Shown here: in pieces, positions 22,927 through 44,989 of the stretch
Layout: every line of letters begins with the position of its first letter
Position numbering within the stretch: the stretch's first letter is position 1
Assembly: GCF_020567705.1 (NCBI RefSeq)
Contig: NZ_JAJDJU010000003.1
Coordinates: forward strand, 62,001 to 126,000
DNA length: 64,000 nucleotides
Source: Acidocella sp. KAb 2-4
GTDB taxonomy: Bacteria; Pseudomonadota; Alphaproteobacteria; Acetobacterales; Acetobacteraceae
Direction: 5' to 3'
Position numbers and translations under genes: made by a program
Notes under the pieces: generated by a model
What the model was told of the DNA's origin: nothing
Seen by the model: only the letters and a program-made list of their open reading frames with translations
The model's database searches: none

Positions 22927-22987
22927 AACCAACCCTCAAGCCAATTTCGTTGGCATTGGCTGTAACCGAACTGAGGGGGGGCGGCAA

Positions 22988-23019
22988 GCGCGGCCGGGCA
23001 CGCCAAGACCCGGCCGCGC
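22988..23019 (-). terminator. Long GC hairpin after the acyl-CoA synthetase gene
   Basis: Perfect 11-bp arms, GCGCGGCCGGG at 22988-22998 and CCCGGCCGCGC at 23009-23019, with a 10-nt loop. There is no T-run on either side, so it may only stabilise the transcript end of the leftward gene or block read-through. Confidence 0.45.
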
Positions 23020-23027
23020 GGCGAGGT

Positions 23028-24656
23028 TTATTGCGGCTGCGCCAGCTTGCGCAGCAGGTGTTTCTGGATCTTGCCGGTGGAGGTTTTCGGCAGCTCGCCA
23101 AACACATATTTCTTCGGGATCTTGAAGCCGGCGAGATGCTCGCGGCAGAAGGCGGTGAGTTCGGCCTCGCTCGCCTCCATGCCGTCCTTCAGTGTGATCA
23201 CCGCCATCGGCACCTCGCCCCATTTCTCGTCGGGCGCGGCGACCACGGCGGCCTCGCGCACTGCGGGGTGGCGGTAGAGCACATCCTCCACTTCCAGCGA
23301 GGAAATATTCTCGCCGCCGGAGATGATGATGTCCTTCGAGCGGTCCTTGATCTCGACATAGCCATCGGGGTGCAGCACGCCGAGATCGCCGGTGAGGAAC
23401 CAGCCGTCGCGAAACGCCTCAGCCGTGGCCTTGGGGTTTTTCAGATAGCCCTTCATCACCACATTGCCGCGGAAGGCCAGCTCGCCCAGCGTCGTGCCAT
23501 CCATCGGCACCGGCTTGCCGGTGGGGTCGAGGATGGTGAGATCCTCCTGCGTGGCGTTGGGCACGCCTTGGCGGGACATCAGCTTGGCGCGCGTGGTCAC
23601 GTCCAGCGCCGGCCAGCTCGGCTGGATCTCGCAATTGGCCGACGGGCCGTAGACCTCGGTCAGCCCGTATACGTGATGCACGCGGAAGCCCAGCCGCTCG
23701 GTGCCCTCGATGATCGCGCTCGGCGGCGCCGCTCCGGCGGTGGCGACGAGCACGCGATGCGGCAGCGGTTTGCGCTGCGCGGCGGGGGCGTTGATGAGCA
23801 TGCCGAGCACGATCGGCGCGCCGCACATATGTGTCACGTCATGCCGGGCGATGTGGTCGAAGATCGCCCCGGCCTCGACCTTGCGCAGGCAGACATGGGT
23901 GCCGCCAACGGCGGTGACGGCCCAGGTGAGCGTCCAGCCCGAGCAATGGAACATCGGCAGCGTCCACAGATATTTGGCGCTGCGGGTGAGGCCCATGGTG
24001 AGCGCGATGCCGACCGCGCCGAGATAGGCGCCGCGATGCGAATACACCACGCCCTTGGGGTTGCCGGTGGTGCCGGAGGTGTAGTTCACCGCGATGGATT
24101 TCCACTCATCATCGGGCAGCGCCCAATCGGCGGGGGCGTGCGGGGCGATCCAGTCCTCGTATTCCGGCGCGCCCATGGTCAGCCCGGCGGGCGCGGCCTC
24201 GTCGGCGATTTCCACCACCGGGATGGCGTGCCCGATCTCGGCCAAGGCGGCCTGGGCCTTGGGCGCCCATTCGCGGTCGACCAGGAACAGCTTGGCCTCG
24301 GCGTGTTCCAGGATGAAGGCGATGGCCGAGGGGTCGAGCAGCGTGTTGATCATGCACAGCACCGCGCCGGCCAGGGGCGCGGCGTAATGCGCCTCCAGCG
24401 GCACCGGGCCATTGGGCGAGAGCACGGCCACGCACTCGCCGGGCTTGACCCCGGCGGCGGCGATGGCGCTGGCGAATTTGCGGACTCGCCCGGCGAATTC
24501 CGCGTAGGTGTAGCGGCGGTCGTGATGCGTGACGGCGAGCTTTTCGGGGAACACCAGCTCCGCCCGGCGCAGGAAGCTGAGCGGCGAGAGCGGTACGTAA
24601 TTCGCCGGGTTTTTGTCGAGATCGGTTTCGAAGATTGCGGTCATGGCGTCGTTCAT
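23028..24656 (-). CDS. Acyl-CoA synthetase (AMP-forming)
   Basis: A 542-aa adenylate-forming ligase that activates a carboxylic acid as acyl-AMP and then acyl-CoA. The AMP-binding P-loop is YTSGTTGNPKGVVYSH; YGLTEVYGP, GELAFRGNVVMKGYLKNP, WFLTGDLGVLHPDGYVEIKDRSKDIIISGGENIS and the final GKIQKHLLRKLA (with the catalytic Lys) complete the set. It resembles the medium-chain/FadD-like group. The ATG at 24656 begins the conserved N terminus; an ATG four codons later is possible. Next to an acyl-CoA dehydrogenase and a TetR regulator, it probably begins a fatty or aryl acid beta-oxidation route. Chain length is unknown. Confidence 0.88.
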   Translation of the reverse strand: MNDAMTAIFETDLDKNPANYVPLSPLSFLRRAELVFPEKLAVTHHDRRYTYAEFAGRVRKFASAIAAAGVKPGECVAVLSPNGPVPLEAHYAAPLAGAVLCMINTLLDPSAIAFILEHAEAKLFLVDREWAPKAQAALAEIGHAIPVVEIADEAAPAGLTMGAPEYEDWIAPHAPADWALPDDEWKSIAVNYTSGTTGNPKGVVYSHRGAYLGAVGIALTMGLTRSAKYLWTLPMFHCSGWTLTWAVTAVGGTHVCLRKVEAGAIFDHIARHDVTHMCGAPIVLGMLINAPAAQRKPLPHRVLVATAGAAPPSAIIEGTERLGFRVHHVYGLTEVYGPSANCEIQPSWPALDVTTRAKLMSRQGVPNATQEDLTILDPTGKPVPMDGTTLGELAFRGNVVMKGYLKNPKATAEAFRDGWFLTGDLGVLHPDGYVEIKDRSKDIIISGGENISSLEVEDVLYRHPAVREAAVVAAPDEKWGEVPMAVITLKDGMEASEAELTAFCREHLAGFKIPKKYVFGELPKTSTGKIQKHLLRKLAQPQ

Positions 24657-24762
24657 CTTGGGGTCCCTCATCCCTGGCTGCGCGGCCTTGGCGATATTCT
24701 GTTGTGGTTGGCCGCCGGGTTGGCGCAGCTCAGCGCCATTTCTCGGCGGTGGCAAGCCTGTG

Positions 24763-26520
24763 TTAAAACAGCTCGACGGGGAGCTGCATCAGCGGCGCGG
24801 CACCATCGCCAATGCTGGCCTCCAGCGCCGTGGTCTGCGGCAACAGCCGCCCGGCGAAGACCCGCGCCAGCGCCAGCTTGGCGGTGTGCAGCGGCGTCTC
24901 GCCGCCGCTCTTGGCGGTGGCGGCCATGCGCGCCCACATCCAGCCAAAGCAGACCAGCGCGAACATGCGCAGATAATCGCAGGCGGCGGCGCCGGTTTCG
25001 GCGGCGTCGGCGGTGCGGCCTTGCAGCCACGTGGTGGTGGCGCGCAGCCGTGTCAGGGCCTGCTCCACGGGCTCCACGATGTCGTCGAGGCCGCCCGCTT
25101 TCCGGCTCTGCGCCAGATCGGCGGCGACCATGTCGAAGAACTCATGCACCAGCTTGCCGTCTTCGAGGCCGAGCTTGCGCCCGACCAGATCATGCGCCTG
25201 CACGCCGTTGGTGCCTTCGTAGATCTGGGTGATGCGGGCATCGCGCACGAATTGCTCCATGCCCCATTCATGCACATAGCCGTGCCCGCCGAACACTTGC
25301 TGCGCGATCACCGTGGCCTCGAAGCCGAAATCGGTGAAGGCGGCCTTGATCACCGGGGTGAGCAGCGAGACCAGCGCGTCGGCCTTGGCGCGGGTCGCGG
25401 CGTCGGGGTGGTGCTCGGAGATGTCCATGCGCATCGCGGTCCACACCGCCAGGGCGCGCCCTGCCTCGACGAAGCCGCGCACGGAGAGTAGCATGCGCCG
25501 CACATCGGCATGGCCGATGATCGGGGCGGGGGCGCTCGCCGCGCCGGGGGCGCGGCCTTGCAGGCGCTCCTTGGCGTAGGCGGCGGCCTTCAGATAGGCG
25601 GCGTGGGCGATGCCCAGCCCCTGCAGGCCGACGAATAAGCGCTCGGCGTTCATCATGGTGAACATCGCGTTCAGGCCGCGGCCCGGCTCGCCCACCAGCC
25701 AGCCCGTGGCGCCGTCATAATTCATCACGCAGGTCGGCTGCGCGTGGATGCCCATCTTGTGCTCCAGCGCGCCGACCGAGAAGCTGTTGCGCGCGCCCAG
25801 GCCGCCATCGGCGTTGAGCAGGAATTTCGGCACCAGGAACAGCGAGATGCCCTTCACCCCGGCGGGGGCATCCGGCAGGCGGGCCAGCACCAGATGGATG
25901 ACATTGCCGCCGAAATCATGGTCGCCGGAGGAGATGAAGATTTTCGTGCCGGTGACGGCGTAGCTGCCATCGCCATTCGGCACCGCCTTGGAGCGCAGCA
26001 GGCCGAGATCGGTGCCCGCGTTGGACTCGGTGAGCGCCATGGCGCCGGTCCATTCGCCGGAGATCATCTTCGGCAGCCAGGTTTGCTTCAGGTCATCCGA
26101 GGCATGCGCGGCGATGGCCTCGACGGCGCCGCGGGTGAGGCCGGGGAACAGGCCGAAGGAGAGATTGGCGCCGGAGAGCATCTCATCGACCAGGAATTGC
26201 AGCGTGCGCGGCAGGCCCTGGCCGCCATATGCGGGCGCGGCGGAAAGGCCGCACCAGCCGCCCTCGGCAAAGGCGGCATAGGCCGCGGGGAAGCCCGGCG
26301 GGGTGGTGACTTCGCCATTTTCCAGCTTGGCGCCGGTGGCGTCGCCAGGCAGGTTGAGCGGCGCCAGCACCGCGGCGCAGAAGCGCCCAGCTTCCTCCAG
26401 CAGGGTGAGGGCGAGGTCGGTGTCGAAGCCTTGCTCGGCGAAGAGCGGGGTGAGTTCGCTGATATCGAGCGCCTGGGTGAGGAGAAAACGCAGATCGTCA
26501 ATCGGCGGGGTGTAGCTCAT
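24763..26520 (-). CDS. Acyl-CoA dehydrogenase, long form (DmdC-like)
   Basis: A 585-aa flavoenzyme longer than classic 380-aa acyl-CoA dehydrogenases, with a C-terminal extension as in the DmdC/FadE5-like group. N-terminal YTPPIDDLRFLL, then YGGQGLPRTLQFLVDEMLSGANLSFGLFPGLT, the FAD/substrate block MALTESNAGTDLGLLRSKAVP, ITQIYEGTNGVQAHDLVGRKL with the catalytic Glu region, and a helical C-terminal domain. It catalyses alpha,beta-desaturation of an acyl-CoA. The start is 138 bp from the divergent TetR gene, which probably regulates it. Chain specificity cannot be read. Confidence 0.88.
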   Translation of the reverse strand: MSYTPPIDDLRFLLTQALDISELTPLFAEQGFDTDLALTLLEEAGRFCAAVLAPLNLPGDATGAKLENGEVTTPPGFPAAYAAFAEGGWCGLSAAPAYGGQGLPRTLQFLVDEMLSGANLSFGLFPGLTRGAVEAIAAHASDDLKQTWLPKMISGEWTGAMALTESNAGTDLGLLRSKAVPNGDGSYAVTGTKIFISSGDHDFGGNVIHLVLARLPDAPAGVKGISLFLVPKFLLNADGGLGARNSFSVGALEHKMGIHAQPTCVMNYDGATGWLVGEPGRGLNAMFTMMNAERLFVGLQGLGIAHAAYLKAAAYAKERLQGRAPGAASAPAPIIGHADVRRMLLSVRGFVEAGRALAVWTAMRMDISEHHPDAATRAKADALVSLLTPVIKAAFTDFGFEATVIAQQVFGGHGYVHEWGMEQFVRDARITQIYEGTNGVQAHDLVGRKLGLEDGKLVHEFFDMVAADLAQSRKAGGLDDIVEPVEQALTRLRATTTWLQGRTADAAETGAAACDYLRMFALVCFGWMWARMAATAKSGGETPLHTAKLALARVFAGRLLPQTTALEASIGDGAAPLMQLPVELF

Positions 26521-27290: not shown

Positions 27291-27325
27291 GGCGTTTTTT
27301 GCAGCATCCGTTGCATTTTTGCAGC
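27291..27325 (+). promoter_or_regulatory. Upstream activator motifs of the ferredoxin sigma-54 promoter
   Basis: The 10-mer TTTTTGCAGC is repeated exactly at 27296-27305 and 27316-27325, 20 bp apart (about two helical turns). The second copy is part of TGCATTTTTGC (27312-27322), which matches sites upstream of the permease promoter at 36996-37006 and 37017-37027. It ends 44 bp before the -24 element at 27366. Likely binding sites of the sigma-54 activator encoded next door. Confidence 0.6.
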
Positions 27326-27365
27326 GGCGGGGGCGCGCAAGCCGCGCCGCGCGCGGGTTTCGCGC

Positions 27366-27381
27366 TGGCATGGCGTTTGCT
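27366..27381 (+). promoter_or_regulatory. Sigma-54 promoter of the ferredoxin gene
   Basis: TGGCAT (27366-27371), a 5-bp spacer, TTGCT (27377-27381) fits the -24/-12 consensus TGGCAY-N5-TTGCW with exact spacing. Transcription would start near 27393, giving a leader of about 35 nt before the TTG start codon. Confidence 0.75.
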
Positions 27382-27427
27382 AATTTTTCAGGACAAATTC
27401 ATATCCATAACCAATGAGGACGATCCT

Positions 27428-27739
27428 TTGCCCGAGATTATTGTTACCGACCGCGCCGGCACCGTGCACAACCTGAAGGCCGCGCCTGGCCAGACTCTGA
27501 TGGAAGCCATCCGTGATAACGGCATTTACGACATCAAGGCCCTATGCGGGGGCAGCTGCTCCTGCGCCACCTGCCATGTGTATGTGGACAGCGCCGCGCC
27601 GCTGGCGCCGATGAGCGATGATGAGAACGACCTGCTGGATGGCACCGATCACCGCCAGGCGAATTCGCGCCTCTCGTGCCAGATCAAGCTCGATGGCCTG
27701 GGCAGCGATTTGCGCGCCGTGATTGCGCCCGAGGATTAA
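27428..27739 (+). CDS. [2Fe-2S] ferredoxin, adrenodoxin/putidaredoxin type
   Basis: A 103-aa electron carrier. Cluster Cys residues are Cys40, Cys46, Cys49 and Cys84 in the C-x5-C-x2-C...C spacing of the vertebrate-type ferredoxins that serve P450s (LCGGSCSCATCHVYV). No ATG fits; the frame begins at TTG 27428 with GAGGA 7 nt upstream, giving MPEIIVTDRAG, the usual family start. Its own sigma-54 promoter lies at 27366-27381. It is convergent with the sigma-54 activator gene (4-bp overlap of the ends). The P450 at 31.1 kb is the obvious acceptor. Confidence 0.9.
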   Translation: MPEIIVTDRAGTVHNLKAAPGQTLMEAIRDNGIYDIKALCGGSCSCATCHVYVDSAAPLAPMSDDENDLLDGTDHRQANSRLSCQIKLDGLGSDLRAVIAPED

Positions 27740-29139
27740 TCCTCGGCGCCGCGGCGCAGCTTGCGGATCAGCGTCGCGCTGTCGATGCCCAGATGCCGCG
27801 CCGCTTCGCGTTTTGAGACATGGCGGGTGATCGCGTCGCGGATCACCCGCTCCTCGAACATGGCCGTCATCTCTTTCAGATGCCCGGTTGCGGCCTCTGG
27901 CGTGAGGCCGGGGGGCGTCGGTGCGTCGGTGCTGAGCAGCGCCGCGGCGAGATGCGCGGGCGTCGCGATTTCATCGGCGACGATGTCCAGATAATCGATC
28001 AGGCTGGAGAGTTCGCGCACATTGCCGGGGAACTCCGCCGCCAGCAGCGCCGTGCGGCAGGCCGCCGAGAGCTTCAGCCGTGGCCGCCGCCCGGTATTCA
28101 CCCGCGCAAGGATGGCGTCGAGTAGCGCCTCCTTGTCCGACCGTTCGCGCAGCGGCGGGATCGCCACCGGGAAGGTGGCGATGCGGTAAAACAGATCGCC
28201 CCGGAACGTGCCTTGCGCGATCATGCCGCGCAGGTCGCGGTTGGTGGCGGTGATGACCGTGGTCTCGATGCGCTTGCTGAGCGCCGAGCCGACCGGCTGG
28301 ATCGTGCTGTCCTCAAGGAATTTCAGCAATTTCGCCTGGGAGGAGAGGGGGATCTCGCCGACCTCGTCGAGGAACAGCGTGCCGCCCTTGGCGCTCTCGA
28401 TATAGCCGCGCTTGCCTGCCTGCAGCGCGCCGGTGAAGGCGCCGCGCTCATAGCCAAACATTTCTGACTCGAACAGGGTTTCCGGAATCGAGCTGCAATT
28501 CACATGCACGAAAGGGGCATCGCGCCCGGCGGCGAGATTGTGGATGTGCCGGGCGATGGCGGTTTTGCCGACGCCGGATTCGCCGAGCAGCAGGATGCGC
28601 ACCCGCCGGCGATAGGCGCGCGCGGCGCGCTCCACCTGCTCCTCCAGCGCGGCGGGGAACAGCAGCTCCGGTCCCTCGGCTCCGCGCCCGGTTTTGCCCG
28701 TGCCGCGCGGGGCGGCGTCCGGCGCCTCGGGCGGGCGCACGATGTAGACGACATAGCCGGTGGCGGTATCGTTGGCGGCGAGGATTTTGCGCAGCACGGG
28801 CAGGCTGCGCCCGTCGGCCTGCGCGGTCAGCGTCGCCCGGCCGTCGCTGCGCCCGCCAGCGGCGAAGCTCTCCTGCAACTCCCACCCGGCGCGGCGCAGA
28901 AACCGCGCGAAGGGCAGGCGCTCGCTCTCGGCGGAGGTGATGCGGGCGAGGCGCTCCATCGCGCCGTTGAGCAGCACCACGTTCTCGTCGGCATCAACGA
29001 CGATCAACGGGTCGGGCAGCAGCCCGGCCACGGCGCGGAAGGCAGGGGTCTCCAGCAGCGCCGTGATCGCCCCCTCCGAGACCGCCTCCTGCCCGCGGAT
29101 GCCGAGGCGGAAGGGGCTGATTTCATTCTGTTTGGTCAT
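27736..29139 (-). CDS. Sigma-54-dependent activator with N-terminal PAS domain
   Basis: A 467-aa bacterial enhancer-binding protein. Residues ~32-135 form a PAS sensor (FRAVAGLLPDPLIVVDADENVVLLNGAMERL); the AAA+ domain has Walker A GESGVGKT (186-193), the sigma-54 contact loop GAFTGA (233-238), Walker B LFLDE (255-259) and FRGDLFYRI; a Fis-type HTH ends the protein (residues ~437-463). There is no receiver or V4R domain, so it senses a ligand or a partner directly. Its start overlaps the stop of the upstream PAS gene (TGATG). It is the best candidate to drive the sigma-54 promoters at 27366 and 36938. Confidence 0.93.
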   Translation of the reverse strand: MTKQNEISPFRLGIRGQEAVSEGAITALLETPAFRAVAGLLPDPLIVVDADENVVLLNGAMERLARITSAESERLPFARFLRRAGWELQESFAAGGRSDGRATLTAQADGRSLPVLRKILAANDTATGYVVYIVRPPEAPDAAPRGTGKTGRGAEGPELLFPAALEEQVERAARAYRRRVRILLLGESGVGKTAIARHIHNLAAGRDAPFVHVNCSSIPETLFESEMFGYERGAFTGALQAGKRGYIESAKGGTLFLDEVGEIPLSSQAKLLKFLEDSTIQPVGSALSKRIETTVITATNRDLRGMIAQGTFRGDLFYRIATFPVAIPPLRERSDKEALLDAILARVNTGRRPRLKLSAACRTALLAAEFPGNVRELSSLIDYLDIVADEIATPAHLAAALLSTDAPTPPGLTPEAATGHLKEMTAMFEERVIRDAITRHVSKREAARHLGIDSATLIRKLRRGAED

Positions 29140-30272
29140 CAGCCCCCGTTGGCGCCGGGTTGCAGCAGCAGCAGCGTTACCGCGCCATGGGCGGGGTCGT
29201 GCGCCGGATGCGCGGTGGCCAGGAATTCGCGCCGCACCCCGCCCGCCGAAGGCAGCACCCAGCTGCGCCGCTTCCGGCTCGTGGTGGCATGGGCGAGGAT
29301 GCGCCGCAGCGCCGCCGCGCCCGGCCCGGAGGCGGGGAACAGCGCGTCGCACGCCGCGTTGTGCCAGAGCACCTGGCCCTGCGGGCCGAGCAGCAGGGCG
29401 GGGTCGGGGAAGGTGTCAAACAGCGCGCCCAGCCCTGGCTGGCCGAGATGCGCGCCATTGGCATGCCGGCAATTGCCCCAGATGCGGTAGAGGTAATTCT
29501 CGCGGATCTCGGCGCGGACATCGTTTTCGAGGTTGACCGTGGTGCCGTCATAGCGCCGGTCGGAGGAGATCGCGGCGTCGATCCGGTAGTCGGAATCGAT
29601 GATCTGGCCGACGAAGGCTTCGTTTTCGGGCGTGCGCGGCCAGTAGAGCCGCACGTCGAAGGCGCGGAATTCCGCGCTGCTGGGAAGCTGGTACAGAGCC
29701 TGCATGGCCGGGTTGGCGATGCGCCAGAGCGAGCGGTTGGCGAAGATCTGGTCCACCACCTCGGCGCGCGGGCGGTTGATGTCCACCGGCTCCAGGAACT
29801 CGATGCACCAATGCGCCTCCGAGGCGTCGGCGATGACGCGGCTGAACAATTTGTTGTCGGCCTGCAAATCGTCATAGGTCTGGCCGACATGGCCAAGAGG
29901 GATCTTGGTCAGCCGGAAATGCGGCGCTCCGGCATGGGCGAGCTTGCGGCAGCGGGCGAGGGTGCGCAGTTCGCGCCCGCCGCGCCCAAGCAGGGTGAGT
30001 TCGAGCGTGGTCACGAAGCCCTCGGGGAGGAAGCGGCCCAGCAGCTCGCGCAGCGCCTCGGCCGAGGCTGGGGTGTAGCAGGCTTCCACCGTCAGCCCCG
30101 CCGCCGCCTCGGGCGTCATCCCGAGCGCCTCGGCCTGGGTCGCGCTCACCCAGCCGATCTGGCCCGCCGTGTCGATGATATCGATCAGCAGATCTTCTGC
30201 CACCTCATCCCCGCCCGGCAGGTCCACCAGTTTCTCCTCGTGACGCTTCCTCAACACAGCACCTCGCGGCAT
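29139..30272 (-). CDS. Orphan PAS-domain protein coupled to the sigma-54 activator
   Basis: A 377-aa protein with no kinase, HTH or other output domain. Three PAS-like segments can be read: residues ~20-125 (IDIIDTAGQIGWVSATQAEALGMTPEAA), ~135-270 (HWCIEFLEPVDINRPRAEVVDQIF ... VVDQIFANRSLWRIANPAMQALY) and ~285-370 (LFDTFPDPALLLGPQGQVLWHNAACDALFP). No signal peptide or membrane segment is present, so it is cytosolic. The stop overlaps the activator start by one base, implying coordinated synthesis; it may sense a ligand and modulate the activator. The mode of action is inference. Confidence 0.75.
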   Translation of the reverse strand: MPRGAVLRKRHEEKLVDLPGGDEVAEDLLIDIIDTAGQIGWVSATQAEALGMTPEAAAGLTVEACYTPASAEALRELLGRFLPEGFVTTLELTLLGRGGRELRTLARCRKLAHAGAPHFRLTKIPLGHVGQTYDDLQADNKLFSRVIADASEAHWCIEFLEPVDINRPRAEVVDQIFANRSLWRIANPAMQALYQLPSSAEFRAFDVRLYWPRTPENEAFVGQIIDSDYRIDAAISSDRRYDGTTVNLENDVRAEIRENYLYRIWGNCRHANGAHLGQPGLGALFDTFPDPALLLGPQGQVLWHNAACDALFPASGPGAAALRRILAHATTSRKRRSWVLPSAGGVRREFLATAHPAHDPAHGAVTLLLLQPGANGG

Positions 30273-30289
30273 TGGCTCAGTATACGCGG

Positions 30290-30315
30290 CAAAATGCCGG
30301 GTGGCGACCCGGCAT
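30290..30315 (-). terminator. Hairpin with short T-run after the amidotransferase gene
   Basis: Perfect 9-bp arms ATGCCGGGT (30294-30302) and ACCCGGCAT (30307-30315) with a GGCG loop; on the minus strand TTTT follows. It lies between the amidotransferase stop and the PAS gene start, so the PAS/activator pair may get only partial read-through and needs some promoter of its own. Confidence 0.65.
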
Positions 30316-30326
30316 CGCGCCAGGCA

Positions 30327-31058
30327 TCAGGCGGGGGTGAATGTCTCCAGGCTGTGCCGGAGGAAATTCTCCACCATGCGCTGACAATCGGGAATGAAAC
30401 TGTAGCGCCGGGATTGTTCCGGGTCGATCTCGGCCCAGCAGGTGGCCATGCGGTCGCAGGTCGTCTCGGGGTGGAATTGCACGGAGACCCAGTTGCCGCC
30501 GTAATCCAGCGCCGCGCAGGGCAGGCCGGGGCGCGAGGCGAGGATAGAGGCGCCTGGAGGGGCGAGGTCTACATGGTCGAAATTGCCGAAGAAGAAGGGC
30601 GAAGCTTCGGTGAACCCGTTGAACAGCCAATGTGCGCGCCCGGCTTCGGTGCGGGTGACGGGCAGGCTGCCCACCACCGGCCCCTCGGGGCGCTTGCCGA
30701 CATGCCCGCCGAGTACCACGGCCATTTGCTGGTGCCCGCCGCAAATGCCCATCAGCGGCTTGCCGGTCGGGCGCCAGGCGGCGAGCCATTTCTGGATCTC
30801 GCGCTGCCAGGGGTAGTCGTCATGCACCGAGGCGAAGCTGCCGCCGAGTACCGCCACGTCGTAATCGAGCGAGATGTCCTCGCCCTCATGCGCCGAGACG
30901 CCGACATATTCGAAGGCCTCAGCGAGCCCGGCAGAGTCGAGCAGCGCCTTGAAGCCGATGGTCTCATCATCGCCGCCCAGCACGCGCACCCATTTGGATT
31001 TATCATAAGAGCCCGGGTGCGCGAACTGCGCGATATAGGCGAGGCGGGGTTTGCGCAT
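30327..31058 (-). CDS. Class I glutamine amidotransferase-like protein of the P450/amine cluster
   Basis: A 243-aa stand-alone GATase1 domain, GMP-synthase-like. The nucleophile Cys106 lies in MGICGGHQQMA, with His196 and Glu198 in VQFHPETT, so the triad is intact. Related proteins (AtdA2/TdnT type) sit beside glutamine-synthetase-like ligases in aniline catabolism and act on gamma-glutamyl amides. The start overlaps the P450 stop by one base, so the two are coupled. A role in hydrolysing a gamma-glutamylated intermediate is inference; the fold and catalytic residues are direct. Confidence 0.85.
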   Translation of the reverse strand: MRKPRLAYIAQFAHPGSYDKSKWVRVLGGDDETIGFKALLDSAGLAEAFEYVGVSAHEGEDISLDYDVAVLGGSFASVHDDYPWQREIQKWLAAWRPTGKPLMGICGGHQQMAVVLGGHVGKRPEGPVVGSLPVTRTEAGRAHWLFNGFTEASPFFFGNFDHVDLAPPGASILASRPGLPCAALDYGGNWVSVQFHPETTCDRMATCWAEIDPEQSRRYSFIPDCQRMVENFLRHSLETFTPA

Positions 31059-32263
31059 CAGGCGACCCCCGCGCGGCGGTCGAACTTGATGGGCAGTGAG
31101 AGCGGCCCGGTATTGCCGCTATCGGGCAGCCACACCGCATCGCCATCGTTGCGCAGATTGGTGACGCGCGCTGGCCACACGCGCAGCACCACCGCCATGT
31201 CGGAGCGGGCGACGGCGTGGCCGAGGCAGTGATGCGCGCCCATGCCAAAGCCGAAATGCAGCGGCCGGCGCGCGGCGATGTCGAAGCCCGGATTCTCGAC
31301 GACGCGCGGGTCGGAACCAGCGGATTCCGAGAAGAGATGCACGGTGGTGCCGGCCTTGATGGGCAGCCCCTGGAATTCGAAATCCTCCACCGCCTCGCGC
31401 GTCACCCAGGTTACGGTCGGGCGTACGCGCATCACCTCTTCCACCGCCTGGGCGGAAAGATCGGGGGTCTTGGCCAGCAGCTCCCACTGGTCCGGATGGT
31501 CGATGAAGGTCTGGATGGCGAGGCCGAGCTGGTTGCGGGTGGTGTCGATGCCGCCGAAGATCGCGAGCACGATGATGTCGAGCAACTCGGAATCGCTCAA
31601 CGCGCCGTCATTGTCGGAGGCTTGCACGAGCTGGGTGAGGAAATCCTCGCCTGGATTGGTGCGGCGCTCGCGGATGATCTCGCGGGAATAATCGAACATC
31701 GCGGTGGTCGCCGCGTCCACGATCTTCTGGTCGCGCTTGTAGTTCACGCCCAGCGCCATGCCCATCTGCGTTGCCCAGTCGGCGATCATCCGCCAATCCT
31801 CGGCACGGGTGCCGAGCAGCATGCAGATCACGCGGGTGGCGTAGGGCTCGGAGAAATCGCCCATGAATTCGCAACGGCCTTCGTTGATGTAGCCATCGAG
31901 CAGCTCATTGGCCAGCGCGTCGAAGCGCGGTGTCAGGTTCTTCAGCAGCTTGGGCGTGAAGGCGGCCATGATCAGCTTGCGCAGGCGCATGTGATCCGCG
32001 CCTTCCTTGTTGAGCAGGATATTGTCCCACCAGGTCTTGAAGGCGCCGTTATTCACATCGTTGTGCGCGGGCCAGGCGTAGCTGCCCTGGCGCAGATGCG
32101 GGTCCTTGATCAGGGCGTTGACCTCGTTATAGCGCAGGATCGCCAGACCATAGGGCGTGCGCGCATACCAGTTGCGTTCGCGCGCGTCGCGCACCGCCTG
32201 CGAGCGGATCGAGAAGCTGGGATCGGCGACGTTGAGGAAATCGGCATCCAATGTGGCACTCAT
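31058..32263 (-). CDS. Cytochrome P450
   Basis: A 401-aa soluble bacterial P450. The heme loop FGFGMGAHHCLGH gives the axial ligand Cys346; ExxR is Glu276-Arg279 (EEVMRV); the I-helix oxygen motif is GGIDTT (residues 237-242). No membrane anchor is present. It is a class I type needing a ferredoxin and reductase, for which the ferredoxin at 27.4 kb and reductase at 21.7 kb are available. It is coupled to the downstream amidotransferase. The P450/GS-like pairing occurs in mycobacterial secondary-amine (morpholine, piperidine) degradation. Substrate unknown; an amine or its gamma-glutamyl derivative is proposed. Confidence 0.93.
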   Translation of the reverse strand: MSATLDADFLNVADPSFSIRSQAVRDARERNWYARTPYGLAILRYNEVNALIKDPHLRQGSYAWPAHNDVNNGAFKTWWDNILLNKEGADHMRLRKLIMAAFTPKLLKNLTPRFDALANELLDGYINEGRCEFMGDFSEPYATRVICMLLGTRAEDWRMIADWATQMGMALGVNYKRDQKIVDAATTAMFDYSREIIRERRTNPGEDFLTQLVQASDNDGALSDSELLDIIVLAIFGGIDTTRNQLGLAIQTFIDHPDQWELLAKTPDLSAQAVEEVMRVRPTVTWVTREAVEDFEFQGLPIKAGTTVHLFSESAGSDPRVVENPGFDIAARRPLHFGFGMGAHHCLGHAVARSDMAVVLRVWPARVTNLRNDGDAVWLPDSGNTGPLSLPIKFDRRAGVA

Positions 32264-32289
32264 GGCAAACCTCTTAGGCAGGAGCGGGG

Positions 32290-32317
32290 AAAAACCGGAG
32301 CGGCGGGGCCGCTCCGG
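32290..32317 (-). terminator. Strong hairpin and T-run between glutamine-synthetase-like gene and P450
   Basis: CCGGAGCGGC (32295-32304) and GCCGCTCCGG (32308-32317) form a perfect 10-bp stem with a 3-nt loop; on the minus strand five T follow. It should stop most transcripts after the first glutamine-synthetase-like gene, lowering or separating expression of the P450 downstream. Confidence 0.75.
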
Positions 32318-32327
32318 AACGTGGGAT

Positions 32328-33818
32328 TTAGGGGATCGCTTCCAGGTAACGGTTGAAGTCCCATTCGGTGACGGTGGAGATGAAGCGCTCCCATTCGTCG
32401 CGCTTGAGCTCCATGAAGACGCGCGACATGTCGCCGGGCAGCGCGCTCATGATCACCTCGTCGGCCTCCAGCGCCGAGAGCGCGGCGCCGAGATCGGTCG
32501 GCAGGCGCTTCACCTGCTTGCCGGCTTCCATCGCCTCATAGATGTTGCGCTGCTCCGGCTGGCCGGGGTCGCGCTTATTGGTCAGGCCGTCATCGAAGGC
32601 CTTCAACAGCGCGCCGCCCATCAGATACGGGTTCACCAGGCTGTCCACCGCGCGGTATTCCACGCGCCCCGGGGCGGAGACGCGGATGCCGACGGTGCGG
32701 TTCTGCATGCCCCAATCGGCGTAAACCGGCGCCCAGTAGCCGAGGTCGGACATGCGGCGATAGGAGTTGACGGTGGAGGAGCCGAGCGCGGTGAGCGCGG
32801 GCAGATGCTCGATCATGCCGCCGATGCAGTGCAGGCCGGTTTGCGTCGGCATCCATTCGCCAGTCGGGCGCAGGAACTCGTTGGTGCCGCCCTTGCGATA
32901 GCTGAACATCTCGTCCATGCCCGGCAATGCGCCGTCGTGTTCCAGCCGGTTCAGCTTGTTCTCGCCGGCCGACCACAGCGAGACATTATGATGGCAGCCA
33001 TTGGCCGACACGCCCATGAACGGCTTGGTCATGAAGGTGGCGATCAGGTTGAACTCACGCGCCACCTGCGCGCAAATCTGGCGGTAGGTGACGAGACGGT
33101 CGGCGTTGCGCAGCACGTCGTCGTACATGATGTTGAGCTCGAGCTGGCCGGGCGCGTCTTCATGGTCGCCCTGAATCATGTCCAGCCCCATGGCGCGGGC
33201 GTAGTCATGCACGCGCATGATTACCGGCGAGAGCTGCTCGAACTGGTCGATGTGATAGGCGTAGGGCTTGGTGACGCCGCCATTCGCCTTGCCGTTTTCA
33301 TCGCGCTTCAGCCACATCATCTCCGGCTCGCAGCCCACGCGCAGCTCCATGCCGTGCTTGGCCTTGAAGGCCTCATGGATGCGCCGCAGATTGCCGCGGC
33401 AATCGGAGGTCAGGAAGGCGCCGGCATCGACATCCTCCTCGCGGTGGCGGAACAGCGTGCAGAACACGCGGCCCACGCGCTTGTTCCAGGGCAGCTGTAC
33501 GAAGGTCTCGGGGTCGGGCAGCGCCACCAGCTCGGCGGCGTTGGAGGGATAGCCGATATAATTGCCGCGGCGGTCGGCGCAGACATCGGCCACCGCGCCG
33601 TACCAGAGCTGCACGCCCTTGTTGGCGATGCTCTCCCAGTGCGGGGCGGGCACGGCCTTGCCCATCACGCGCCCGGTGGCGGAGATGAACTGGTAATACA
33701 CATGGTCGATGCCAAGTTCCTTGATTTTGGCGGCAACCTGGCGCACGCGCTCGGCGCGCAGCGGGTCGGCGATAAAGGCCTCAAGATCGGAGCGATGGGT
33801 CTGGGTAACGGCATCCAT
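32328..33818 (-). CDS. Glutamine synthetase-like gamma-glutamylamide ligase (copy 1)
   Basis: A 496-aa GS-I-fold ligase. ATP/metal motifs are present: GCEPEMMW, GDHEDAPGQLELN, NGCHHNVSLW, NSYRRMSDLGYWAP and GRVEYRAVDSLVNPYLMGGALL. The N-terminal part resembles the beta-grasp of GS but the whole is closer to the GlnT/PuuA-type proteins that glutamylate amines other than ammonia. It follows a second GS-like gene by 21 bp; AAGGAAC precedes its ATG. With the permease, P450 and amidotransferase it likely activates an imported amine as a gamma-glutamylamide. Substrate cannot be derived from sequence. Confidence 0.85.
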   Translation of the reverse strand: MDAVTQTHRSDLEAFIADPLRAERVRQVAAKIKELGIDHVYYQFISATGRVMGKAVPAPHWESIANKGVQLWYGAVADVCADRRGNYIGYPSNAAELVALPDPETFVQLPWNKRVGRVFCTLFRHREEDVDAGAFLTSDCRGNLRRIHEAFKAKHGMELRVGCEPEMMWLKRDENGKANGGVTKPYAYHIDQFEQLSPVIMRVHDYARAMGLDMIQGDHEDAPGQLELNIMYDDVLRNADRLVTYRQICAQVAREFNLIATFMTKPFMGVSANGCHHNVSLWSAGENKLNRLEHDGALPGMDEMFSYRKGGTNEFLRPTGEWMPTQTGLHCIGGMIEHLPALTALGSSTVNSYRRMSDLGYWAPVYADWGMQNRTVGIRVSAPGRVEYRAVDSLVNPYLMGGALLKAFDDGLTNKRDPGQPEQRNIYEAMEAGKQVKRLPTDLGAALSALEADEVIMSALPGDMSRVFMELKRDEWERFISTVTEWDFNRYLEAIP

Positions 33819-33839
33819 TTGGAAGTTCCTTTGTGTTTC

Positions 33840-35168
33840 TTAAGCGGATTCGAAATAACGGGATTTTTCGGCCACACTCACGGCCTTACGCAGCGCCTCG
33901 GCCTCGAACAGCCGGGACTCCACGAAGCGGTCCACGAAGGTCGCGCCGAACAGTGTCTTCGCGGTTTCGCTCGCGGCCAGAGCCTGCGCCGCGCTGTAGA
34001 GATCGCGCGGCAACGGGGTGAGGCCGGGCAGGGCGGATTCATTGCCGGTGGCCGGCACCGGGGCGGGCGGCTCGATGCGGTTTTCAATGCCCCACAACCC
34101 GGCGCCGAGGAAAAAGCTGAGCGCGAGCCAGGGATTGACGTCAGCCGCCGGAATGCGGAACTCCAGGCGCGGATTGGCCAGCGGTTCCGTGACCGCGCGG
34201 ATGGCGGTGGTGTAGCCGCCCAGGCTCCAAGTGGCGGTGCGCGGCGCCCAGTTGCCGGGCGTCATGCGCCGGTAGGCGTTGACCGTATGCGCGGGTAGCG
34301 CCAGCGCCTCTGGCAGCAGCTTCAGCACGCCGCCGACGAAATGCCGCCCGGCCTCGCTGAGCTGGCCTGGCCCGGCCGCGAAGATGTTGTGGCCCTGCGA
34401 ATCCAGCATCGAAAACTGGATATGGCCCGAGAGGCCCGGCGCCGCCGCGTCCGACTGCGCCATGAAGCAGGCTGACATGTTGCGCTGACGGAAGAACGCC
34501 TTGGTCGCGGCCTTGAAGAACATCGCGTCATCGGCCGCGCGCAGCGGGTCGGTATGGCGCAGCGTGGCTTCCAGGCAGCCTTTGCCCAGCTCCATGCCGA
34601 GCCCGGCGGTGGTCACGTCCGCCTCGGCGAGCGTTTCCTCAAGCGCTTGAATGAGTGGCGCGTTGATAGCGCCGGAGAGGGTGTCCCAGCAGCGGTTATC
34701 CACCGCGAACGGGGTCAGGTCCTGATAGCCCTTCTGGCGCAGCGTGTCGGCGTTTTCCTGAAACACCAGCCACTCGAACTCGAAGGCGGCCTGTGCGGTA
34801 AACCCGGCCTTGGCGGCTTTCTCGATCTGGCGGATCAGCACGTTGCGGGTGCTGGTGGCGGCCGAGGGGCCGCTGAAATCGCTCACCACCCAGGCGGCGT
34901 CGCGCTCGAACGGGTAGGGGCGGTAGGAGGTTTCGTCGACCGCCACCTCCTCGCTCTGGTAGGGGGCGGCGCCGAACACGTTGTCGGCGGCGTCCCATTT
35001 ATGCAGCACGTTGCAGAAACTACCGCCCCGGCGCACGCTGGTTTCAAAGGTCTCCCGCGAGATCCGCCGTTCGCGCAGGCCGCCGTCGATGTCTGGCAAC
35101 ACGACGTGAAAGACCTTTGCCGCGCGGGGATCCAGGGCGGGTTTCCCCGCCATGGCCTCGTTCGTCAT
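33840..35168 (-). CDS. Glutamine synthetase-like gamma-glutamylamide ligase (copy 2)
   Basis: A 442-aa GS-fold protein, clearly divergent from copy 1. Metal and ATP blocks include FEFEWLVFQENA, GMELGKGCLEATLRHTDPLRAADDAMFFKAATKAF, LSGHIQFSMLDSQGHN, NAYRRMTPGNWAPRTATW and RLEFRIPAADVNPWLALSFFLGAGLWGIE. The start at 35168 lies ahead of the conserved domain; 35153 is an alternative. The gene is 59 bp downstream of the permease, with a small hairpin between them. Two adjacent, unlike GS-type genes may form a heteromer or act on successive amines. This is inference. Confidence 0.82.
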   Translation of the reverse strand: MTNEAMAGKPALDPRAAKVFHVVLPDIDGGLRERRISRETFETSVRRGGSFCNVLHKWDAADNVFGAAPYQSEEVAVDETSYRPYPFERDAAWVVSDFSGPSAATSTRNVLIRQIEKAAKAGFTAQAAFEFEWLVFQENADTLRQKGYQDLTPFAVDNRCWDTLSGAINAPLIQALEETLAEADVTTAGLGMELGKGCLEATLRHTDPLRAADDAMFFKAATKAFFRQRNMSACFMAQSDAAAPGLSGHIQFSMLDSQGHNIFAAGPGQLSEAGRHFVGGVLKLLPEALALPAHTVNAYRRMTPGNWAPRTATWSLGGYTTAIRAVTEPLANPRLEFRIPAADVNPWLALSFFLGAGLWGIENRIEPPAPVPATGNESALPGLTPLPRDLYSAAQALAASETAKTLFGATFVDRFVESRLFEAEALRKAVSVAEKSRYFESA

Positions 35169-35207
35169 TCGCTTATCCAGTTCTGTGAGTTTGGAAAGTT
35201 TTAGAAA

Positions 35208-35223
35208 GCGCCTGAAAAGGCGC
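35208..35223 (-). terminator. Small hairpin between permease and ligase genes
   Basis: GCGCCT (35208-35213), GAAA loop, AGGCGC (35218-35223). On the minus strand it is followed by TTTC, so it is at most a partial attenuator, or an RNA processing/stability element within the operon. Confidence 0.4.
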
Positions 35224-35227
35224 GGAA

Positions 35228-36721
35228 CTAGTCCGCGCGCAGGTGCAGTTTGGCAGCGTCGCCGTAAGGGGCGGTGCCGCGCAGATAGGGGCGGCCGAGC
35301 ACCATGTAGAGCAGGCCGGCGCCGCCGATGATGGCAACGGTGAGCGGCATGGACCAGTTGAGGTACCACGCCTCTGACGGCGTGCGCGGCCAAGCCATGT
35401 TGATGATGGCGGCAACGCCATAGCCCAGGGCCAGGATGTTCACGAGCCAGGCCCAGCCATTGAGGCGGAACTTGCCAGAGGGCTGCCAGCCGCGGGCGCG
35501 GGCGACGAGCGCGGCCACCACCACCATTTGGAAGGCCAGATAGATGCCGATGACCGCGAAGTTGAGCACCGTGGCCAGCGCGTTTTGCAGGAAGTAGCCA
35601 ATCGCCACGATCGCCGCGGGGGCGAGGCCAGCGATGAGCAGCGAGCCTTCCGGCACGTGCGCGTTCTCGGCCATGCGCGAGAGGAAGCGGCTGCCGATGA
35701 TCATCTCGTCACGCGCATAGGAGTAGAGCAGGCGGCTCACCGCGGCCTGCAGGCTGAGCGCGCAGGAGATGAACGAGACCATGACGATGACGATCACCGC
35801 CTTGGCGCCGAGCGGACCAAAGGCGCTGGTCAGCACGGTGCCGATCGGGTCGGCTTCCTTGCCCGAGATCACGTCGGCCATGTTGGGGATCGACATGATC
35901 AGCGCGAGGCAGACGAAGATCGAGGCGCCGACGCCGACATAGATCGTCATGCGCATCGCCTTGGGGATCTCCACGCCCGGGTTCGGGGTTTCTTCGGCCA
36001 CGTCGCCGCAGGCCTCGAAGCCGTAGCAGCAGAACAGACCCACCAGCGCCGAGGCAAGGAACGCCGGCCAATAGGAACCCGTGCCCTGGATGTTGAAGGT
36101 GTTGAACACCACCGAGAGGGGCTGCGCGCGATGCAGGGTGAGCAGGTCGACACCGACGACAATGGCGCCCACGAGCTCGCAGATGAAGCCGAACATGGCC
36201 ACCTGCGCCAGCAGCTTGGTGCCGCGCATGTTGATGGCGGTGGTCAGCGCCACCAGCACCAGCGCCGCGATGGTGGTGAATGCCGGTGTGGCGTTGACGC
36301 CGAACAGCGTGGCGAGGAACGGCCCCGCCCCCAATGCCACGGCGGCGATGGTGGTGAACAGCGCCCAGCCGTAAATCCACCCGGCCATCCAGGCCCAGCG
36401 GCGCCCCACGAGGCGGCGCGCCCAGGGGTACAGCCCGCCCGAAATCGGAAACTGCGAGACAACCTCACCAAAGATCAGCGCGACCAGGAATTGGCCAAGC
36501 CCGGCGATAACGTAAGACCAGATCATCGGCGGCCCGCCGGCCTGCAGCCCGAAGGCGAAAACCGAATACACGCCCACCACCGGCGACAGATAGGTGAACC
36601 CCAAAGCGAAGTTCTGCCACACCGACATGGTGCGGTCGAAGTTCGAGGTATACCCAAGCGCCGCCAGCTGCGCATCGTCAGATGCGACGTGGATCGCATC
36701 TATGTGCTTATGTGGCTCCAT
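35228..36721 (-). CDS. APC-family amino acid/amine permease
   Basis: A 497-aa inner-membrane transporter with about 12 hydrophobic segments. The start FDRTMSVWQNFALGFTYLSPVVGVYSVFAFGLQAGGPPMIWSYVIAG (in family blocks) and EVVSQFPISGGLYPWARRLVGRRWAWMAGWIYGW are the TM1-TM3 signatures of the APC superfamily; CYGFEACGDVAEETPNPGVEIPKAMR is the TM6-7 region seen in GABA/choline-type permeases. The ATG at 36721 has AAGGGGG 6 nt upstream. It is first in the operon, behind the sigma-54 promoter at 36923-36938 and a structured leader. It probably imports the amine handled by the downstream ligases. Confidence 0.9.
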   Translation of the reverse strand: MEPHKHIDAIHVASDDAQLAALGYTSNFDRTMSVWQNFALGFTYLSPVVGVYSVFAFGLQAGGPPMIWSYVIAGLGQFLVALIFGEVVSQFPISGGLYPWARRLVGRRWAWMAGWIYGWALFTTIAAVALGAGPFLATLFGVNATPAFTTIAALVLVALTTAINMRGTKLLAQVAMFGFICELVGAIVVGVDLLTLHRAQPLSVVFNTFNIQGTGSYWPAFLASALVGLFCCYGFEACGDVAEETPNPGVEIPKAMRMTIYVGVGASIFVCLALIMSIPNMADVISGKEADPIGTVLTSAFGPLGAKAVIVIVMVSFISCALSLQAAVSRLLYSYARDEMIIGSRFLSRMAENAHVPEGSLLIAGLAPAAIVAIGYFLQNALATVLNFAVIGIYLAFQMVVVAALVARARGWQPSGKFRLNGWAWLVNILALGYGVAAIINMAWPRTPSEAWYLNWSMPLTVAIIGGAGLLYMVLGRPYLRGTAPYGDAAKLHLRAD

Positions 36722-36810
36722 ACTTAACCCCCTTGAACGTTTGTGACACTGACAACACACGGCATTACGCCATGCGCCTAGCGTGCCTCCGCCAAGCCAG
36801 CATTTTTGCC

Positions 36811-36908
36811 GCTGGTCCCGGCGAAGTCTTCCCTCCTGGCTTGCGGCTTCATCGTGCGGGAGCGGGAGCAACCTCCCGCCATACCGCGCCGACTTCGCTA
36901 CGCACCAG
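36811..36908 (-). ncRNA. Structured 5' leader of the permease operon, unclassified
   Basis: The predicted transcript starts near 36912 and at once enters nested inverted repeats. CTGGT (36904-36908) can pair with ACCAG (36812-36816), GCGAAGTC (36891-36898) with GACTTCGC (36821-36828), and a 7-bp hairpin, GCGGGAG/CTCCCGC, lies at 36862-36879. The strand also reads AAGCCAGGAG (36833-36842), matching the first ten bases of the B12-box pattern, but the rest of that box and the other cobalamin core elements are missing. It is either a leader of unknown class or a simple attenuator. Confidence 0.5.
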
Positions 36909-36922
36909 ACGCAGGACTGACT

Positions 36923-36938
36923 TGCAATGCCCGTGCCA
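36923..36938 (-). promoter_or_regulatory. Sigma-54 promoter of the permease-ligase operon
   Basis: On the minus strand TGGCAC (36938-36933), a 5-bp spacer and TTGCA (36927-36923) match the -24/-12 consensus exactly. Transcription would begin near 36912, leaving a leader of about 190 nt before the permease ATG at 36721. Confidence 0.85.
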
Positions 36939-36995
36939 CTTTGTTTGGCTATTATTTTTCAATGGCTTGAGGAAGATTCTGCAACGCAATAGCGA

Positions 36996-37027
36996 TGCAT
37001 ATTTGCCGATTTGTGATGCGTTTTTGC
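36996..37027. promoter_or_regulatory. Paired activator sites upstream of the sigma-54 promoter
   Basis: TGCATATTTGC (36996-37006) and TGCGTTTTTGC (37017-37027) are spaced 21 bp start to start, about two turns, and lie 58-89 bp upstream of the -24 element. The ferredoxin promoter has the matching TGCATTTTTGC. A weaker match (AGCATTTTTGC, 36799-36809) is in the leader. Confidence 0.6.
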
Positions 37028-37055
37028 TTGTTTTTGTTAGAAGCGATATAGCAAC

Positions 37056-39507: not shown

Positions 39508-40317
39508 TTACAGGAATTCGCTGACGAGTTGGTTGAAACGGTCAGTGTGCTCGATCTGCGTCCAATGCCCGCAGCGGCCGAACATGTGCAACTCGGCCTT
39601 GGGCAGCAGATTGAACAGCCGCAGGCTCGCCTCTGGCGGGATCACCTGGTCCTCGCGGCCATGGATGACCAGCGCCTCGTGCGGCAGCTTGGCGATCTCC
39701 TCCTCGGCGGAGGCAAGGCCATCGACCCCAGCCTGTCGCGGCGCCGGGAACATGGCGGAGAAACTCTCTTGGAAGCCCGGCCGGATGGAGGCCTGGTAGC
39801 GCAGCTGCGCCAGCTCGTCATTCACCAGCGCGCGGTCATAGGCGAAGATGTCGAGCAGAGAGCGCATGGTCTCGATCGAGGGCTGGTAGCCCCAAACCGC
39901 GTCCAGCCCCGCCGTGATGGGGAAGCTGACGCCAACACTGCCCATCAGCACCAGGCGGCGCACGCGCGCCGGGTGGCGGATGGCGAAAGCCAGGGCCAGC
40001 CCGCCGCCGAAGGAGTTGCCGACGAGATCAACCTGGTCCAGCCCGAGCGCATCGAGGAAATCGGCGAGGTGCTGCAACCACAGCGCCTTGCCATACACCG
40101 CGCCGGCCGGACGCTCGGTGAAGCCGAAGCCCACCATGTCCGGCGCGATGACGCGGCGTTGCGCGGCCAGCGGCCCGATATTCAGGCGCCAATTGGCCCA
40201 GGCGGAGACGCCTGGGCCGGAACCGTGGATCAGCACCGCCGGGAAACCCTCACCCTGGTCGTGGTAATTGGTGAGGATGCCGCCCGCGTTGACGCTTTTC
40301 CCGAGTTCGGGGTTCAT
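39508..40317 (-). CDS. dmpD: 2-hydroxymuconic semialdehyde hydrolase (meta-cleavage product hydrolase)
   Basis: A 269-aa alpha/beta hydrolase that cleaves the ring-fission product of catechol or methylcatechols to 2-hydroxypenta-2,4-dienoate and a carboxylate. Catalytic Ser102 in VGNSFGGG, Asp223 in HGREDQVIP and His251 in CGHWTQIEH form the triad; the oxyanion block is LIHGSGPGVSAWANW. It is the last gene of the leftward meta operon and overlaps the tautomerase by 4 bp. The close match in length and motifs to DmpD/XylF supports the call. Confidence 0.93.
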   Translation of the reverse strand: MNPELGKSVNAGGILTNYHDQGEGFPAVLIHGSGPGVSAWANWRLNIGPLAAQRRVIAPDMVGFGFTERPAGAVYGKALWLQHLADFLDALGLDQVDLVGNSFGGGLALAFAIRHPARVRRLVLMGSVGVSFPITAGLDAVWGYQPSIETMRSLLDIFAYDRALVNDELAQLRYQASIRPGFQESFSAMFPAPRQAGVDGLASAEEEIAKLPHEALVIHGREDQVIPPEASLRLFNLLPKAELHMFGRCGHWTQIEHTDRFNQLVSEFL

Positions 40318-40505
40318 GACTTTGGCAAGCCCTTAACCTCGCCACCAGCGGCGAAGTGCCAGGCCGGCACTTCGTTGATGATGACGCGGATGGACTCGCG
40401 CGGTGCGTTGATGCTCTCGACGATCGCCTCGGTGACGGCCTTGACCATCTTCACCTTCAGCTCGACAGAGCGGCCCTCAATCATGGTGACGTTGACGATC
40501 GGCAT
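40314..40505 (-). CDS. dmpI: 4-oxalocrotonate tautomerase
   Basis: A 63-aa subunit of the hexameric tautomerase that interconverts 2-hydroxymuconate and 2-oxo-3-hexenedioate. After Met removal, the catalytic Pro1 starts the sequence PIVNVTMIEGRSVELKVKMVKAVTEAIVESI; Arg residues near positions 10 and 39 fit the active site. Read as 40314-40505 because only this ATG yields Pro at position 1. It lies 2 bp from dmpH and overlaps dmpD by 4 bp, inside the meta-cleavage operon. Confidence 0.94.
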   Translation of the reverse strand: MPIVNVTMIEGRSVELKVKMVKAVTEAIVESINAPRESIRVIINEVPAWHFAAGGEVKGLPKS

Positions 40506-40507
40506 GA

Positions 40508-42312: not shown

Positions 42313-42313
42313 G

Positions 42314-43255: not shown

Positions 43256-43258
43256 GAT

Positions 43259-44979: not shown

Positions 44980-44989
44980 GGTCTGGCGC

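Follow-up and report, generated by a model that had tools for sequence, protein, structure and literature searches.

Genes of the operon and the adjacent ferredoxin

The window, that is the whole stretch of 64,000 nucleotides from the acidophile Acidocella sp. KAb 2-4 which was analysed here, carries on its minus strand an operon that starts with an amino-acid/amine permease gene (35228-36721), assigned by its domain and preceded by a conserved Shine-Dalgarno sequence at a conserved start codon. Two genes for glutamine-synthetase-like ligases, candidate gamma-glutamyl amine ligases of the GoaS/GmaS/IpuC type, follow. The first of them in the direction of transcription, ligase 2 (33840-35168), was recognised by its domain and is 34% identical to IpuC, and the second, ligase 1 (32328-33818), belongs to PF00120 and has glutamate--methylamine ligase as its best solved relative. 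Next come a CYP151-like cytochrome P450 (31058-32263), identified by domain and identity searches, in which the heme-cysteine motif FGFGMGAHHCLG is kept, and a class-I glutamine amidotransferase-like protein (30327-31058), which due to its domain and its 57% identity to a homologue from Paracoccus sp. TOH is presumed to be a gamma-glutamylamide hydrolase. The genes for a PAS protein (29139-30272) and a sigma-54 activator (27736-29139) close the operon. The intergenic gaps are short, and one-base overlaps are found between the P450 and amidotransferase genes as well as between the PAS protein and activator genes.

A [2Fe-2S] ferredoxin (Pfam Fer2) with a TTG start is encoded on the plus strand (27428-27739), convergent with the activator gene. 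Its orthologues are 59-70% identical and adjoin the operon or lie near to it, and the protein is likely the electron donor of the P450. No ferredoxin reductase gene co-transcribed with the ferredoxin gene was found; the gene at 21685-22932 is the best candidate, but its product shares only 45% identity with the reductase encoded beside the ferredoxin in A. aromatica (L018).

The activator comprises a PAS domain, an AAA+ domain and a Fis-type HTH, according to Pfam domains and motifs. Its AAA+ domain matches PF00158 (E 1e-57) and contains the Walker A motif GESGVGKT, the Walker B motif GGTLFLDE and the GAFTGA loop, while the C-terminal HTH scores above the cut-off for HTH_50 and also matches HTH_8. 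The protein has the AAA+ motifs and the Fis-type HTH by which a sigma-54 enhancer-binding protein is defined. The earlier inspection of the DNA, here called the sequence-only reading, was thus right in placing a PAS-AAA+ activator with an intact GAFTGA motif between the two promoters described below. The genome encodes six full sigma-54 activators, one of which is this protein within the P450/ligase cluster. Since its gene lies inside the permease operon, the activator is probably made from that operon under its own control.

The second regulatory gene, which encodes the PAS protein, had escaped the sequence-only reading. Profile searches and the predicted fold indicate two PAS domains, both confident, with a helix between them, followed by a weaker, PAS-like C-terminal region that is not present in the other Acidocella proteins. 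This third region was considered as a copy of the activator's PAS domain, an idea that was dropped as no significant similarity was seen between the two. A fold search returned only generic tandem-PAS matches (PpsR, FixL, DosP), which give no hint of a ligand, and no kinase-like domain was found by the domain profile search. The PAS protein gene adjoins the activator gene wherever both were seen, and its product is likely a sensor or an anti-activator partner.

Putative sigma-54 promoters, upstream palindromes and a structured leader

Two sites that match the pattern TGGCAY-N5-TTGCW perfectly, with GG at -24, GC at -12 and the correct spacing, flank the cluster. The exact 5-bp spacers reported earlier for both were found as described. 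The ferredoxin promoter TGGCATGGCGTTTGCT (27366-27381, plus strand) has a predicted start at about 27392, and the permease-operon promoter TGGCACGGGCATTGCA (36923-36938, minus strand) one at about 36912. If one mismatch is allowed, neither this motif nor the upstream motif TGCRTWTTTGC occurs in the window above chance. The window by itself is therefore not decisive, and the one-mismatch counts were replaced by genome-wide tests and tests of conservation. The argument depends on the occurrence of exact matches, on where they lie and, most of all, on their conservation.

The 3.1-Mb genome, which contains a single copy of rpoN, was scanned by pattern matching. It yielded nine exact matches to the promoter pattern compared to one for a reversed control, and two of the nine bracket the P450/ligase gene cluster. 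The partner PAS protein is 71-74% identical in the relatives A. aquatica (L016), A. aromatica, A. aminolytica (L019) and the MAGs L017 and L020. The -24/-12 elements are kept at the permease promoter in L016, L018, L019 and L020, and at the ferredoxin promoter in L016, L017, L018 and L020. Together with the upstream palindromes described below, the promoters are kept at all five Acidocella permease loci and at all five available ferredoxin loci, while the surrounding intergenic DNA has otherwise largely diverged. The search of related genomes that had been proposed as a check, for the upstream motif and the promoter near orthologues, thus recovers the -24/-12 elements and TGCA-N4-TGCA in the Acidocella relatives. 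From these patterns we infer that both promoters depend on sigma-54.

Upstream of both promoters an 11-bp motif, TGCRTWTTTGC, had been noticed. It is indeed present, as TGCATTTTTGC at 27312, TGCATATTTGC at 36996 and TGCGTTTTTGC at 37017, although the 11-bp unit has to be redefined because it is part of a 12-bp palindrome, TGCA-N4-TGCA. At the ferredoxin promoter the putative activator palindrome TGCATTTTTGCA (27312-27323) is centred 48 bp upstream of -24. At the permease promoter a proximal copy TGCATATTTGCC (36996-37007) and a distal copy TGCGTTTTTGCT (37017-37028) are centred at -63 and -84 from -24, that is 21 bp apart. The two-turn pairing described earlier is therefore clear at the permease, whereas the second copy at the ferredoxin GGCGTTTTTTGCA (27291-27303), about two turns farther upstream, has one extra T and is degenerate; it is weak and was not scored as a site. 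In front of the permease the palindrome mostly comes as a pair, at a distance of about two helical turns, and in the permease promoters of four relatives the centres lie at -79 and at -56 or -57 from -24.

When every palindrome made of 4-base half-sites separated by 0-12 bases was counted without bias, TGCA-N4-TGCA came first of the 3,328 tested, with occurrences in 9 of 10 Acidocella promoters. When gammaproteobacterial and Paracoccus promoters were added it was present in 13 of 16, compared to 6-9 of 16 for the best palindrome in each of six random sets. Each promoter was also scored with a matrix from which its own species and close relatives had been left out. The best site then reached p = 0.001-0.034 per promoter in Acidocella and the gammaproteobacteria, and p = 0.03-0.23, which is weak or not significant, at three Paracoccus promoters. 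An extension of the palindrome to Paracoccus is for that reason not claimed. Both putatively co-regulated promoters have a conserved palindrome in common, at distances from -24 that fall within the range of about 45-130 bp expected of activator sites.

The palindrome alone (KGCAWWWWTGCM) is common, with 21 sites in the 3.1-Mb genome. Within 130 bp, a sigma-54 site accompanies only two of them, which both lie in the window and whose sigma-54 sites score 18.3 and 20.2 bits. At the eighteen sites outside the window that were examined, the best sigma-54 score over the same distance did not exceed 10.2 bits; most of these sites lie inside open frames, and a further, remaining site lies inside the rpoN gene. 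The combined pattern, a sigma-54 site with TGC-N6-GC at a distance of 30-60 bp, matches three times in the genome, at the two window promoters and at one place without the AT core. A wider regulon was considered and rejected, since the other perfect sigma-54 sites of the genome lack the palindrome and the 18 other palindrome sites examined lack a sigma-54 site. Those other perfect sites stand before rpoN and before unrelated genes, among them those for an iron-type alcohol dehydrogenase and a phenol/toluene-type monooxygenase, as named by reading the predicted proteins.

Between its promoter and the permease gene the operon has a leader of 190 nt, which contains a conserved structured RNA of two hairpins (36740-36831, minus strand). 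The two-hairpin RNA was seen in all of the Acidocella leaders examined, which with five sequences are few. Their fold z-scores range from -1.9 to -3.2, and four aligned leaders give 18 consensus pairs, in three of which both bases vary; in L019 the second hairpin is poorly preserved. A model of this RNA matched strongly only in front of the permease operon, and a search of Rfam gave no match.

Distribution of the operon and related regulator pairs

Among 38 Acidocella genomes the P450 and the activator are both found in the same five; two further bins contain the activator alone, on contigs that end inside the operon. Beyond the genus, four gammaproteobacterial MAGs (L021-L024) encode ligase, ligase, P450, PAS protein and activator in unchanged order. 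A TGCA-N4-TGCA site lies ahead of a sigma-54 site in L021, L022 and L024, and such promoters precede N,N-dimethylformamidase-like genes (L021) or the ligases (L024); a scan of L023 found no sigma-54 site. The Acidocella and the gammaproteobacterial activators share the HTH helix GIDxATLIRKxR, and both groups also have the palindrome. From the co-occurrence, the genetic linkage and this conserved recognition helix we infer that the local activator binds the palindromes. On a Ruegeria plasmid the same enzymes are encoded together with an AsnC-type regulator, with no PAS/activator pair in the stretch read and no sigma-54 site ahead of the enzyme genes.

More distant PAS/AAA+ pairs are found in Rhizobium, Sinorhizobium, Shinella, Methylobacterium, Ruegeria and Hoeflea plasmids. 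Where annotated, they adjoin genes for an ABC transporter and an aldehyde dehydrogenase, and sometimes gabT where the stretch reaches far enough. The distant activator homologues beside polyamine-transport genes lack GAFTGA. A scan ahead of the operons of such GAFTGA-less pairs found no sigma-54 site, and there were few hits elsewhere in those records. The Paracoccus pair and one Shinella pair, in contrast, have kept GAFTGA and have 20-bit sigma-54 sites. A phylogenetic tree joins Paracoccus to the GAFTGA-less proteins of Ruegeria and Hoeflea and sets it apart from the GAFTGA-less Rhizobium group, so that with strong support at least two changes of GAFTGA are needed. Activators without GAFTGA that work at sigma-70 promoters are known, for example NtrC of Caulobacter (PMC12421884). 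A far-reaching and in our estimate rather doubtful interpretation would be that the PAS and PAS-AAA+ pair forms an undescribed family of amine-catabolism regulators. Such a family would have shifted between sigma-54-dependent action at P450 operons and sigma-54-independent action at polyamine-transport/gabT operons, and would be joined in Acidocella by a new structured RNA leader, which would place two layers of control on one amine operon.

Proposed circuit, its alternatives and known systems

One sigma-54 circuit that links the ferredoxin with the P450/ligase operon was the central proposal of the sequence-only reading. The conserved promoters and palindromes, the co-occurrence of P450, ligases and activator, and the genome-wide uniqueness of the arrangement support it, and judged from these sequence comparisons the single circuit is very probably real. 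At both -24/-12 promoters the PAS-AAA+ protein (27736-29139) would bind TGCA-N4-TGCA at a distance of 45-90 bp upstream. In the presence of an inducer it would consume ATP and, through its GAFTGA loop, bring the sigma-54 RNA polymerase there into the open state. The permease promoter would drive the whole operon from the permease through both ligases, the P450, the amidotransferase and the PAS protein to the activator, which, being encoded in the operon that it fires, would raise its own level. The second promoter would supply the ferredoxin that feeds the P450, and the adjacent PAS protein would act as sensor or anti-activator partner. A small amine would be imported, attached to glutamate and hydroxylated by the P450, after which the gamma-glutamyl bond would be hydrolysed. 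This full model of activator, palindromes, two sigma-54 promoters and an amine pathway, built on the observed sites, conservation, linkage and protein families, appears to us well probable.

Most likely the operon would serve the inducible breakdown of a small, perhaps cyclic amine via gamma-glutamyl intermediates. Relationships to distant proteins suggest as best guess a cyclic secondary amine of the piperidine, pyrrolidine, morpholine or piperazine type. The operon might instead serve an aliphatic primary amine such as isopropylamine, which is possible but not what we favour. In the Ipu pathway isopropylamine is imported by a permease and ligated to glutamate by IpuC, the amide is hydroxylated by a P450 system, and the amino alcohol is then set free by an amidotransferase (PMC6776027). 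The pathway, which leads to alaninol in Pseudomonas KIE171 and Paenarthrobacter aurescens TC1, has the same gene set as the window, with permease, GS-like gamma-glutamyl ligase (IpuC), P450, ferredoxin and amidotransferase in the cluster of TC1. However, the window P450 is only 28% identical to the Ipu P450 of TC1, the window has two ligases, which are 27% and 34% identical to IpuC, and no PAS/AAA+ pair is annotated in the part of the actinobacterial TC1 locus that was read. Membership in Ipu needs an orthologous P450 and IpuC, and at 28% and 27-34% identity neither was found. The P450 is much more similar to homologues from Gordonia pGKT2 (56%), the piperazine-degrading Paracoccus sp. TOH (57%) and the Ruegeria plasmid (60%). 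Because the gene set equals that of Ipu and the P450 identities favour these homologues, the Acidocella operon can be read as one that works like Ipu, short of shown membership, with an enzyme of the cyclic-amine lineage.

Both sigma-54 promoters could also be real while one or both respond to another of the five further full activators in the genome, such as a nitrogen regulator of the NtrC type. Amine use is often under nitrogen control, which would fit; yet none of the other perfect sigma-54 promoters examined in the genome has the palindrome, operon and activator co-occur across genomes, and the gammaproteobacterial relatives with the same activator HTH helix have the palindrome too, and we therefore consider control by another activator unlikely. 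A view of the upstream repeats as chance or as generic elements, AT-rich or IHF-like, with two independently regulated promoters, could draw on the chance-level counts of TGCRTWTTTGC in the window and on the 21 palindromes in the genome, but is highly unlikely given that TGCA-N4-TGCA came first in the unbiased search, was recovered with related species held out and is fixed in position relative to -24 in the permease promoters.

A single circuit controlled by the local activator, which we favour, would offer a testable set of regulator, operator and promoters for a P450/gamma-glutamyl-ligase amine pathway whose homologues occur in both Alpha- and Gammaproteobacteria, a known degrader of piperazine among them. 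The related pairs without GAFTGA provide a natural comparison for AAA+ activators leaving sigma-54, and such a circuit might be used as an amine biosensor. In a limited library no literature on a sigma-54/PAS regulator of P450/ligase amine operons was found. The literature searched appears to describe neither the combination of the parts nor the PAS partner, the palindrome or the repeated loss of GAFTGA, while the parts themselves are of known kinds.

Several known systems share parts of this arrangement. The CYP151-type loci with PipA of M. smegmatis and MorA of Mycobacterium sp. HE5 encode, like the window, a P450 with redox partners. Membership in the CYP151 family calls for more than 40% identity to its members, and the window P450, a candidate member, is 56% identical to the P450 of Gordonia pGKT2, itself putatively CYP151C. 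The regulator PipR of the matching mycobacterial cyclic-amine locus is not known to be a sigma-54 activator, in contrast to the PAS/AAA+ pair in Acidocella. PipR is known here as the regulator of the mycobacterial locus from a title cited in PMC9477822, and the same paper describes PipA and MorA as cyclic-amine P450s and Gulosibacter relatives with an adjacent GS gene.

Another related system is that of Paracoccus sp. TOH, for which degradation of piperazine is reported by Cai et al. 2013, as cited in PMC5533781. On its plasmid p2 the enzyme genes, the PAS/activator pair and rpoN occur together with three strong sigma-54 sites; identities to the window proteins are 57% for the P450, 56% and 45% for the ligases, 57% for the amidotransferase, 33% for the PAS protein and 34-37% for the activator. 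TOH differs in that its P450 frame runs on into a flavoprotein reductase, with no adjacent ferredoxin seen, that rpoN lies beside the activator, and that the upstream palindrome is weak.

The aniline and 1-naphthylamine systems (AtdA1A2.., NpaA1A2..) also combine a gamma-glutamyl ligase, a glutamine-amidotransferase-like hydrolase and an oxygenase (PMC11335346), but they act on aromatic amines and contain a Rieske dioxygenase in place of the P450. Pairs of the NifL-NifA type resemble the window in that a PAS sensor gene adjoins and overlaps the gene of a sigma-54 activator, whereas the partner in the window consists of PAS only.

Leader RNA of the permease operon

The permease operon has a conserved two-hairpin RNA in its 5' leader (window 36740-36831, minus strand). 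It is also found in A. aquatica (L016, 3442-3529), A. aromatica (L018, 3497-3590), A. aminolytica (L019, 3498-3592) and one Acidocella-related MAG (L020, 3405-3500), and the comparison of these leaders revealed some compensatory changes. Strong matches to the model of this RNA are confined to DNA upstream of the permease operon, and a search for an Rfam match found none.

PAS partner proteins and GAFTGA-less regulator pairs

The PAS partner of Acidocella sp. KAb 2-4 (29139-30272, minus strand) carries a PAS-like C-terminal extension of about 100 residues (residues 273-377). This extension is absent from the other Acidocella orthologues, and the rhizobial homologues are similar in length to the window protein.

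The GAFTGA loop is gone from the more distant PAS and PAS-AAA+ pairs of the records L026, L027, L028 and L052-L057, whose operons are not preceded by a sigma-54 site. At least two independent losses are indicated by the tree. The neighbours of these pairs are polyamine-type ABC transporter and ALDH genes, in some cases also gabT.

Redox partners and neighbouring pathways

Within the window a ferredoxin reductase gene adjoins acyl-CoA ligase and acyl-CoA dehydrogenase genes (21685-26520, minus strand). This reductase is the best candidate partner of the ferredoxin in the KAb 2-4 genome; it is only 45% identical to the reductase which accompanies the ferredoxin in A. aromatica. On plasmid p2 of Paracoccus sp. 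TOH (L029, 13250-16162) the P450 and a flavoprotein reductase, annotated as separate genes, form a single open frame of 970 codons, and because of this continuity the P450 looks self-sufficient.

A catechol meta-cleavage cluster (39508-47993, minus strand; extradiol dioxygenase, aldehyde dehydrogenases, hydratase, HOA aldolase and hydrolase) adjoins the amine operon and is located upstream of KatG. Among the gamma MAGs, N,N-dimethylformamidase-like genes follow a sigma-54 site located downstream of the activator gene (L021, 5710-8433; L024, 12117-15674), and in L024 this site has a gamma-glutamyl-hydrolase-type (Peptidase C26) gene beside it. A. aromatica contains near the ferredoxin promoter a separate sigma-54 site (L018, 14069, plus strand) before Rieske-oxygenase-type genes, and these genes have an apparent XylR-type activator as a neighbour.
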